Source: Siphonodentalium dalli
Lineage: Eukaryota > Mollusca > Scaphopoda > Gadilida > Siphonodentaliidae
DNA length: 64,000 nucleotides
NCBI GenBank assembly: GCA_032622095.1
Contig: CP136069.1
Coordinates: 65,123,319-65,187,318 of the forward strand
Direction: 5' to 3'
The notes below the pieces were generated by a model. That model was given only the letters and a program-made list of their open reading frames with translations. It was not told where the DNA came from and did not search any database. Position 1 is the stretch's first letter. Every line of letters starts with the position of its first letter. The translations under genes were made by a program, and so were the position numbers. This document shows positions 26,801 to 32,800 of the stretch, in pieces.

Positions 26801-29800
26801 GTGGTAAATTGGAGTTCAAACCACCATGTGGCTTTAAAATTCTACAATATTCCACTTTATATACACCCATTTGAAAAAATGAGACATATTATGTTATAGT
26901 CTCCTTCCATCTAGTTGTTCGCTTTTTTTCATATCCGGATGATAACTTTAGTAAGTCTGAACTGAGTGGAATGAAATTTGGTATGTGAGTTTACTAGCAC
27001 AAAATACAGGTCAAGTTCAAATTTGGGTTTCGCCTGCCAATTTTCACCAGAGTTACGGCCCTTTTTGTTGGAATTTACACTCAATTTTACTTCCAGATGA
27101 TAACTTTAGTAAGTCTGAACTGAATGAAATGAAATTTTGTATGTGAGTTTACTAGCCCAAAATAAAGGTCAAGTTCGAATTTGGGTTCCGCCTGCCAATT
27201 TTCACCAGAGTTATGGCCCTTTGTTGAAATTACCACAGGCATTTTTTCCACGCCCTAGTGATGCTCTTGTTGTTATATTCTTCAGGCAGAGAATTTACTT
27301 GGAAGGTGGTGTCCTGTTTATAACATCTCGCATTCTGGTTGTGGATCTGCTGACAGACCGAGTGCCGATGGAACACCTCTCTGGAATATTGGTGTACAAG
27401 GCTCACAGGTAAAGTAATAAGGGTTGACCCTGAGGTACATGACGGGAGTCGCACTGGTGCAACATTAAATATAGGAGAGTCTCCCATAGGGAGCCTCGCA
27501 TATAAAAGAGAATGCACTGGCTTACTATGGGAGTCTCGCATATATAAGAGAATGCATTAGCACAGAGCAAAATTTCAGGAAGCTCTTGTCATGGAAGGGT
27601 TAAATGGGGAATACTGGTTTATGAATGCTCACAAGTAAAGTCATCAGATGATATGCCACAATAAATGCCACACTAAGCGATATGCCACATGGAGGTATGC
27701 AGTTGGCAACCACCCAGCTCTTATTTGATCAGTTGTCTGCCTCTGAAGCTGCCATCATCCTTTTTTGCCATAATTCCTATTTTCCCTCAATATAGTTGAG
27801 AAAAACAAATTTTTCCCTATCTGTAAATTTTGAAAAACATAATTGCCCAAGAAATTTTGAAAAACAAAATTGCTTTAGAAACAATTTTTGTTTAATAATT
27901 ATGATCTTATATTGCAGAATAATTGAATCTTGTCAGGAAGCATTCATTCTTCGACTCTACAGGCAGAAAAATAAGGTGAGAGATAACTAATACAATATTC
28001 CAGAATTTATTTTGATTCAGATTGATTATTCATAAATTTATAAGGTAAGGAATTGAGTACAAACTCCAGGGAAATATCTCTATCACGGAGAAATTCTGAA
28101 ACTGGAGTAGCGCTTTCGAGTTTGGTAAATCTTCATCAGTTTGCTTTATGGGTGAATTGTGGATAGGGTCTCCCTTTTAGGGTCAGAAAGCGAGGTCCTG
28201 ATGAAGATTGGACCAAAATTAAAAATTCTAGACCAGTTTCAGAATTTCTCCATGATAGAGATATTTCCCTGGAGTTTGTACTCAATTCCTTACCTGATTT
28301 AACTTGTATAGTCCGGCCGCCAAGTGCCAATATTTCACTGGACCGTGTATAGCATGATAGTCCTTGTGAGCAGTTTATCATCAGTATGCAGTTCCCCAAA
28401 TATAACAAGGTCTATCGATACTGACTTTGTTGTGTGCAACCAAAAGAATTTAACGATCATTTAAATATTGTAATTTGGTCAGTGGTCACGAATAGTGACA
28501 GCCGAAGAAGAGTGTTGTCTCGAAATACATGTATGTCCACCTACTCGGTATCGAAATTACTAATTAATTCTAGACACACAAATTAAGTTATTTTCAAGTG
28601 CCCAAATTCACTGGACCGGTATGCCCAAATTAGCCACGGATTAGTCCCTGATAACATGGCCAATATACACCTCTAGTCAATTTGTATTGCGTTCCGGTTT
28701 TTATACCTTTTTGATTGATCTTTTATCAATATATTTCACCACATTTTACCAATAAACTTGGTGGTTTAGACAGCCTGTGGTGACAATATACCTGATAGTT
28801 ATTGTTGCCAATGGTCTTTTGTTGAATACCCACATATACACTGTTGTATTTAGCTCCTATTCAATATTTGAAACATAACTAATTTCCGTGTGACAGTTTC
28901 CTATTTTCATGTTACCGGTGGACAACTACGGTGAGATCCTAAATCGAAATAACATGATCCAACGCAGGCCATTTTTTTCTATGTGGCGATGCCTGAGAAT
29001 CTAAACCTTTTTTTTTGTGGCATCCACAAAAACATTTTGTGTGAGCTGAGCATTTGTTTGTATACAGCAAGTAAAGAGTGTGTGACCCATTTATTACCAA
29101 AATCTTAAGTGGCGAGGATTAGTGAGCACTATACCGGTATGTTGTAAGCAACATGTTCGCAGTTTTAACCGAAGTTCACCTAGTGGAGTATACCTGGTGT
29201 TGAGCATTTTGCTTATCGCAAACTCTTTGCATACTGTACTGTAATAATTTGGCTTTTGTTTATGTAACACAGCAGATGCACTTTACAATAACATAATATT
29301 TAAGCGATATCTATGATTGGTATAAGAACAAAGTCTGTTTATATTTTAATAGTCTTTCTGTTTATGGCGGTTTTAACGGATGTGACTATTTTAACAGCAA
29401 TACAATTGCAAAGGTCATCTGTGCCTTTAAGGCATTCTCAGAGAACCTCACTTAGTCATTATGTGATTTTCTATGCATTTTCAATCCATTTTCAGACTGG
29501 TTTTGTCAAGGCATTCTCCGAGAGTCCACAATTATTTACATCAGGATTTTGTAATGTTGAGAGAATGATGAAACACCTTTTTGTCAAGAAACTCTTCCTT
29601 TGGCCGAGGTTCCATTCTAATGTACTTGCATGCTTCGAAAAACATAAGGTAAATTAACAGTAGTTAAACCATAAGGTAAATTAACAGTGGTTAAACCATA
29701 AGGTAAATTAACAGTGGTTAAACCATAAGGTAAATTAACAGTGGTTAAACCATAAGGTTAATTAACAGTAGTTAAACCATAAGGTAAATTAACAGTGGTT

Positions 29801-32800
29801 AAACCATAAGGTAAATTAACAGTGGTTAAACCATAAGGTAAATTAACAGTGGTTAAACCATAAGGTAAATTAACATTGGTTAAACCATAAGGTAAATTAA
29901 CAGTGGTTAAACCATAAGGTAAATTAACAGTGGTTAAACCATAAGGTAAATTAACAGTGGTTAAACCATAAGGTAAATTAACATTGGTTAAACCATAAGG
30001 TAAATTAACAGTGGTTAAACCATAAGGTAAATTAACAGTAGTTAAAACATAAGGTAAATTAACAGTGGTTAAACCATAAGGTAAATTAACAGTGGTTAAA
30101 CCATAAGGTAAATTAACAGTAGTTAAACCATAAGGTAAATTAACATTGGTTAAAACATAAGGTAAATTAACAGTAGTTAAACCATAAGGTAAATTAACAT
30201 CGGTTAAACCATAAGGTAAATTAACAGTGGTTAAACCATAGGTAAAATAACAGTGGTTAAACCATAAGGTAAATTAACAGTGGTTAAAACATCAGGTAAA
30301 TTAACAGTGGTTAAACCATAAGGTAAATTAACAGTGGTTAAACCATAAGGTAAATTAACAGTGGTTAAACCATAAGGTTAATTAACAGTAGTTAAACCAT
30401 AAGGTAAATTAACAGTAGTTAAACCATAAGGTAAATTAACAGTGGTTAAACCATAAGGTTAATTAACAGTAGTTAAACCATAAGGTAAATTAACAGTGGT
30501 TAAACCATAAGGTAAATTAACAGTGGTTAAACCATAAGGTAAATTAACAGTGGTTAAACCATAAGGTAAATTAACATTGGTTAAACCATAAGGTAAATTA
30601 ACAGTAGTTAAACCATAAGGTAAATTAACAGTGGTTAAACCATAAGGTAAATTAACAGTGGTTAAACCATAAGGTAAATTAACATTGGTTAAACCATAAG
30701 GTAAATTAACAGTAGTTAAACCATAAGGTATATTAACAGTAGTTAAAACATAAGGTAAATTAACAGTGGTTAAACCATAAGGTAAATTAACAGTGGTTAA
30801 ACCATAAGGTAAATTAACAGTAGTTAAACCATAAGGTAAATTAACAGTAGTTAAACCATAAGGTAAATTAACAGTAGTTAAAACATAAGGTAAATTAACA
30901 GTAGTTAAACCATAAGGTAAATTAACATTGGTTAAACCATAAGGTAAATTAACAGTGGTTAAACCATAAGGTAAATTAACAGTGGTTAAACCATAAGGTA
31001 AATTAACAGTGGTTAAACCATAAGGTAAATTAACAGTGGTTAAAACATCAGGTAAATTAACAGTGGTTAAACCATAAGGTAATTTAACAGTGGTTAAACC
31101 ATAAGGTAAATTAACAGTAGTTAAACCATAAGGTTAATTAACAGTAGTTAAACCATAAGGTAAATTAACAGTAGTTAAACCATAAGGTAAATTAACAGTG
31201 GTTAAACCATAAGGTTAATTAACAGTAGTTAAACCATAAGGTAAATTAACAGTGGTTAAACCATAATGTAAATTAACAGTGGTTAAACCATAAGGTAAAT
31301 TAACAGTGGTTAAACCATAAGGTAAATTAACATTGGTTAAACCATAAGGTAAATTAACAGTAGTTAAACCATAAGGTAAATTAACAGTGGTTAAACCATA
31401 AGGTAAATTAACAGTGGTTAAACCATAAGGTAAATTAACATTGGTTAAACCATAATTTAAATTAACAGTAGTTAAAACATAAGGTAAATTAACAGTGGTT
31501 AAACCATAAGGTAAATTAACAGTGGTTAAACCATAAGGTAAATTAACAGTAGTTAAACCATAAGGTAAATTAACAGTAGTTAAAACATAAGGTAAATTAA
31601 CAGTAGTTAAACCATAAGGTAAATTAACATTGGTTAAACCATAAGGTAAATTAACAGTGGTTAAACCATAAGGTAAATTAACAGTGGTTAAACCATAAGG
31701 TAAATTAACAGTGGTTAAAACATCAGGTAAATTAACAGTGGTTAAAACATCAGGTAAATTAACAGTGGTTAAACCATAAGGTAAATTAACAGTCGTTAAA
31801 CCATAAGGTTAATTAACAGTAGTTAAACCATAAGGTAAATTAACAGTAGTTAAACCATCAGGTAAATTAACAGTGGTTAAACCATAAGGTAAATTAACAG
31901 TAGTTAAACCATAAGGTAAATTAACGGTAGTTAAACCATAAGGTAAATTAACAGTGGTTAAACCATAAGGTTAATTAACAGTGGTTAAAACATAAGGTAA
32001 ATTAACAGTGGTTAAACCATAAGGTAAATTAACAGTGGTTAAACCATAAGGTAAATTAACATTGGTTAAACCATAAGGTAAATTAACAGTGGTTAAACCA
32101 TAAGGTAAATTAACAGTGGTTAGTTAAACCATCAGGTAAATTAACATTGGTTAAACCATAAGGTAAATTAACAGTGGTTAAACCATCAGGTAAATTAACA
32201 GTAGTTAAACCATAAGGTAAATTAACAGTAGTTAAACCATAAGGTAAATTAACAGTGGTTAAACCATCAGGTAAATTAACAGTGGTTAAACCATCAGGTA
32301 AATTAACAGTGGTTAAAACATAAGGTTAATTAACAGTGGTTAAAACATAAGGTAAATTAACAGTGGTTAAACCATAAGGTTAATTAACAGTGGTTAAAAC
32401 ATAAGGTAAATTAACAGTGGTTAAACCATCAGGTAAATTAACAGTGGTTAAACCATAAGGTAAATTAACAGTAGTTAAACCATAAGGTTAATTAACAGTG
32501 GTTAAAACATAAGGTAAATTAACAGTGGTTAAACCATAAGGTTAATTAACAGTGGTTAAAACATAAGGTAAATTAACAGTAGTTAAACCATAAGGTAAAT
32601 TAACAGTAGTTAAACCATAAGGTAAATTAACATTGGTTAAAACATAAGGTAAATTAACAGTGGTTAAAACATCAGTTAAATTAACAGCGGTTAAAACAAG
32701 GTTATTTAACAGGTAAATTAAATGACTGCTTTATTTGTCAAAGTAATCCATATTCCATCACCGATGGCAAGTTGGAAAATTTTCGGTGGGCTGTAGGCGG

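Follow-up and report, generated by a model that had tools for sequence, protein, structure and literature searches.

Intron 6 of an ERCC4/XPF gene, located in the 64,000-nucleotide stretch of DNA analysed here (the window), opens with a tandem array of about 113 copies of a 27-bp unit, the first of which holds the donor of exon 6. The array is of the same kind as the human ABCA7 and CBS VNTRs and not new in kind. An earlier note on this DNA had stated that it knew of no described repeat with such an origin in a working donor; this claim of novelty does not hold, as both human VNTRs are constructed alike. Since human genes with this kind of array are known, the array in ERCC4 is probably an ordinary, tolerated repeat, striking as it is. 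We consider it likely that it represents a donor-anchored minisatellite of the ABCA7/CBS kind, which grew by single units and by blocks, with the first donor mostly used, some V-N-stop leakage and an effect that is mostly tolerated.

The gene and the exons on either side of the array are placed as follows.
17807..57155, plus strand: coding part of the ERCC4/XPF gene, about 20 exons (tblastn with two mollusc XPFs, splice sites by eye)
29496..29648, plus strand: exon 6 of ERCC4, 153 nt, phase 0 at its end, closing with ...EKHK (XPF match, tblastn, alignment)
34439..34552, plus strand: exon 7, 114 nt, phase 0 at both ends (XPF match, splice sites, alignment)

The translated exons 6 and 7 match human XPF with an E-value of 1.5e-27, which confirms the earlier assignment of the preceding exon to ERCC4 as its exon 6, and tblastn with mollusc XPFs agrees. 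A protein search with the joined-exon translation gave 833 hits among 7996 candidates scored, and the top named match among the best 120 of these was the XPF of Haliotis cracherodii. The XPFs of Haliotis and Acanthosepion, compared with the window by tblastn, outline a plus-strand gene whose ATG lies at 17807 and whose stop codon ends at 57155; its splice sites were placed by eye, and the limits of exons 10 and 12 are not settled. A tree built from 24 XPF rows placed the row of the window, which was partly typed from the tblastn translation, with lophotrochozoans (98/96) and with molluscs (94/88, just under the support mark), within no supported class. The highest identity to the window XPF in this set was 68%. 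Judged by these sequences, the gene is probably that of a mollusc.

The array itself comprises three features.
29639..32695, plus strand: 27-bp minisatellite, about 113 copies (TRF and unit parse)
29649..29654, plus strand: putative true donor of intron 6, GTAAAT, in the first array copy (phase fits exon 7; use suggested by homology)
32670..32720, plus strand: degenerate 3' tail of the array; the final copies are incomplete, and the tail ends in AACAGGTAAATTAAATGACTGC (sequence reading and parse)

TRF reported a period of 27 bp, 113.1 copies, 94% matches and a score of 5385, so that the array is real as first described; at such a score a separate chance test is superfluous. Its start had been given one base late, as CATAAG occupies 29643-29648 and the intron begins at 29649, with the donor GT at 29649-29650. 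The unit does open with the end of exon 6 and its donor, while the match to the exon covers ten bases rather than the six proposed. This ten-base exon end, AAAACATAAG, has 13 further exact copies in the window, all of them inside the array, and a one-base variant, AAACCATAAG, is present in 85 copies. Parsing gave 114 units, the last ones degenerate, of which 110 are exactly 27 bp long. GT is kept at the donor place in 112 units, and the donor 9-mers are AAGGTAAAT (86), CAGGTAAAT (10), AAGGTTAAT (11) and others (7). As the earlier note had it, most copies read AAG/GTAAAT or CAG/GTAAAT (96 of 114 units); a plain string count yields 97, one of which lies out of register at the 3' end. The array thus shares with donor-anchored VNTRs a tandem unit of a few tens of bp in many copies, the first of which, according to frame and homology, is the real donor of the flanking exon (exon 6 end 29648, array start 29639). 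The array is closed by AACAG/GTAAAT (32695-32720), which resembles a zero-length-exon (recursive splice) site and probably arose when a stretch between two AGs was deleted. Read on the minus strand, the array has open frames with repeats of the nine residues LPYGLTTVN, because 27 bases equal nine codons.

Self-alignment of the string of unit types gave 74 pairs between copies 4-87 and copies 30-108, of which 51 are identical, with 15 gaps; it reached a score of 68.8, compared with at most 24.1 across 60 shuffles. The paired units are 97.8% identical over 1971 bases. The array therefore grew in part by block duplication of some 21-26 copies each. A simple lag test for blocks gave 0.16, which is only the 95% level of the shuffles (shuffle maximum 0.21). 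Changes per copy amount to 0.36 in copies 1-14, 1.23 in copies 15-28 and 1.21 in copies 99-112, and the value for copies 15-28 means that there is no even gradient along the array. The block duplications suggest that copy number may vary between individuals. Tandem arrays are often mis-sized, and the copy number rests on a single assembly, so that the true array might be much shorter, much longer or mis-joined. However, it sits inside one continuous gene, there is no N in the window, and the variant blocks are 97.8% identical instead of being perfect copies. We therefore regard an assembly artefact as very improbable.

The closest parallel is the VNTR in intron 18 of human ABCA7, which has a 25-bp unit in about 12 to 427 copies (PMC5954066). 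The VNTR opens with the two bases of the exon 18 donor; as in ERCC4, the array's first GT thus serves the preceding exon as its canonical donor (PMC5954066). Both arrays reach the hundreds or, in ABCA7, up to hundreds of copies, with units of similar length (25 and 27 bp), and in both, use of the next donor leads to a premature stop and the following exon is in frame. The ABCA7 donor one unit downstream is in use and shifts the frame, and two frameshifting isoforms, subject to decay, account for 14 and 2 per cent (PMC5954066); the 2 per cent figure is taken to be the one-unit retention. Skipping of the in-frame exon 19 grows with VNTR length, while one-unit retention does not, and this skipping is large in brain, with 45 per cent in one area (PMC5954066); canonical splicing is therefore not always the majority there. 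The two arrays also differ. The ABCA7 VNTR is described as GC-rich (PMC6857246), its unit starts at the GT while that of ERCC4 starts ten bases inside the exon, and its copy number is known to vary and to go with splicing, whereas the ERCC4 array is known from one sequence. Furthermore, gene and phylum are different.

The human CBS VNTR at exon 13-intron 13 is a second parallel. Its 31-bp unit, c.1444_1467+7(16_21) with 24 exon and 7 intron bases, spans the exon end and the donor like that of ERCC4 (PMC2630376), and lower activity has been linked to more repeats (PMC5188458; PMC1395315), the first of which calls the place of the VNTR non-coding. Unlike the ERCC4 array with its about 113 copies and ten exon bases, it has 16-21 copies and 24 exon bases. 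Introns can also be gained by tandem duplication under the AGGT scheme. The case of potato RdRp resembles ERCC4 in that a duplicated segment with AG/GT supplies splice sites (PMC4974935). Gain of this type produces a new intron with few copies, whereas in ERCC4 an existing intron was lengthened. A third donor-anchored VNTR besides ABCA7 and CBS was not found among the titles and abstract beginnings listed from the open-licence literature.

Which of the donors would be used cannot be read from their strength. With the sequence that we take to be the U1 end, the true intron 6 donor gave a duplex energy of -6.8 kcal/mol. The 18 ERCC4 donors scored (of 19 expected, exon 12 not being resolved) range from -3.4 to -11.6, and nine are stronger than that of intron 6. 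Within the array, 96 of the 114 copies pair at -6.8 kcal/mol or better, and the ten CAG/GTAAAT copies pair at -8.3 kcal/mol, better than the true donor. A candidate explanation for preference of the first donor was hairpin masking, as GTTAAACC precedes most inner copies and could pair with the donor GGT, while exon sequence precedes the first donor. Local folding ruled this out: the probability of being unpaired was 0.151, 0.096 and 0.071 for the first donor, compared with medians of 0.143, 0.091 and 0.075, and 52, 54 and 58 of the 113 inner copies were at least equally open for the three window sizes. The array RNA, judged by one 270-nt piece, is more structured than its shuffles (z -2.91, equalled by none of 200), with a structure at the first copy no different from elsewhere. 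The first copy is thus favoured neither by U1 pairing nor by predicted RNA structure. This counts against the tolerated minisatellite that we favour, in which use of the first donor is an assumption from sequence, as ten copies beat the true donor in U1 pairing and RNA folding shows no preference for the first. Classic work on competing donors would likewise allow downstream donors to win.

As exons 6 and 7 each consist of whole codons, any array donor, if used, would read V-N-stop. This agrees with the earlier reading of VN and then a stop; retention of intron 6 reads K-V-N-stop in an open reading frame ending at 29657. Exon 7, with phase 0 at both ends and 114 nt, can be skipped with the frame surviving. 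Together with the GT kept in nearly all copies and the length-dependent skipping of the next exon reported for ABCA7 (PMC5954066), these properties would suit a splicing rheostat, in which donor copy number sets exon 6 leakage or exon 7 skipping, tunes XPF and is kept at its length for this purpose. However, one-unit retention in ABCA7 was unchanged with length (PMC5954066), and in the ERCC4 array the donor columns show no clear excess of conservation over the remaining columns. In the 110 units that are exactly 27 bp long (the other four of 114 were excluded), departures from the consensus affect 28 of 990 cells at donor positions and 69 of 1980 elsewhere. The nine donor columns hold 8 of 16 distinct substitutions, with 5.3 expected, and so carry no sign of selection. 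The donors of the array look kept through copying rather than through selection, and we regard a rheostat as improbable. Across these units, variation is nearly absent from the arms TTAAC and GTTAA and is highest at the four bases between them. One of the 16 distinct substitutions lies in the ten arm columns (binomial 0.006, in a test picked with the data already in view). A purely neutral array would not have to show this pattern, which counts against a wholly neutral view.

Intron 6 spans 29649-34438 (4790 bases), and close to its other end it carries a transposon.
33327..34409, no strand assigned: hAT-like element, 1.08 kb, with perfect 17-bp terminal inverted repeats (sequence of the ends)

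We take this element to be hAT-like on account of its ends and of an 8-bp target duplication, CAATTTGC, at 33319-33326 and 34410-34417, from which 21 nt lead to exon 7. It would thereby sit in the usual branch-site region, and both ends of the intron appear rebuilt, with the donor amplified and the usual branch-site region, if correctly placed, interrupted. The many donors might recruit U1 and so keep a long AT-rich intron from being cleaved and polyadenylated prematurely, or they might serve as a U1 sink. Both the 96 copies that pair at least as well as the true donor and the position of AATAAA/ATTAAA in the intron, only past the end of the TRF array (32717, 33370 and 33648; these two signals were searched), would fit such a role. 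There is, however, little to protect, as the intron without array and transposon comprises only about 0.6 kb, and the lack of a sign of selection on the donor columns also speaks against it. Furthermore, U1 is abundant, and its depletion by one intron is unlikely. We give this possibility hardly any weight. The earlier note had offered a U1 decoy and a rheostat next to a neutral minisatellite, and nothing in donor conservation, strength or accessibility favours either of the former two over a tolerated minisatellite.

A second array in the same gene also includes a donor.
19547..20869, plus strand: second donor-bearing array, in intron 2 (TRF, tblastn, anchor search)

Its unit of about 128-137 bp consists of the final 70 nt of exon 2, followed by its donor GTATGT and the first part of intron 2. 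Ten anchors were found, including the exon's own; nine have a readable donor place, with GT in eight and AT in one, and the tenth is cut short. An extra copy at 20755 has TT in place of GT. The copies, about ten, also have AG just upstream and look like a row of pseudo-exons. Among 18 donors tested, those of intron 2 (8 places) and intron 6 (103 places) have copies that cross the junction; the intron 13 donor has four hits elsewhere, none crossing the junction. The acceptor test covered 14 of the 19 expected junctions, all but those of exons 10, 12, 13, 15 and 19, and no crossing copy turned up for any of them. A 169-bp tandem repeat of 2.8 copies in intron 3 (25193-25664) matches no donor or tested acceptor junction of ERCC4. 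Ahead of the gene, LINE-type retrotransposon reading frames lie on the minus strand at 11323-14456. The first frame (11326-13119) has relatives with the reverse transcriptase domain PF00078. Among the best 120 of 982 LINE relatives, no named species is close; the two that have a name, Patella and Pinctada, reach 45-51%.

Under uniform placement over the gene, with some exon limits approximate, the probability that at least one of 12 arrays starts in the last 10 exon bases is 0.058, and 0.34 for the last 70, so that chance could account for where the first array lies, taken by itself. The joint probability for both long arrays, one starting in the final 10 exon bases and the other in the final 70, is 0.0003, a question framed after the data had been seen. 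That one array starts right at the end of an exon, and that the gene holds another array with a donor, could be more than chance. That the donors of ERCC4 nucleate tandem duplication, with the intron 6 array as a length-dependent dial for XPF through VN-stop leakage and exon 7 skipping, we nevertheless consider improbable.

For the tolerated minisatellite that we favour, the following course may be proposed. A 27-bp stretch comprising the last ten bases of exon 6, the donor and the start of intron 6 would have been duplicated locally, possibly through microhomology offered by a short run of A that the exon end and the unit have in common. The array would then have grown further, partly via the blocks of some 21-26 copies observed here. 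Exon 6 may still be joined from its first donor, the choice being fixed by exon definition, as the ABCA7 case suggests. A few per cent of transcripts would probably use the next donors, read V-N-stop and undergo nonsense-mediated decay. If length matters, the likeliest effect by analogy to ABCA7 would be more skipping of the in-frame exon 7. For the most part, the array would be tolerated and not under selection.

VNTRs of the ABCA7/CBS kind, familiar from human genetics, therefore also arise in a probable mollusc gene, and the donor copies of the ERCC4 array are nearly perfect. It offers a natural test of the spliceosome's choice among more than 100 near-identical 5' splice sites in tandem.
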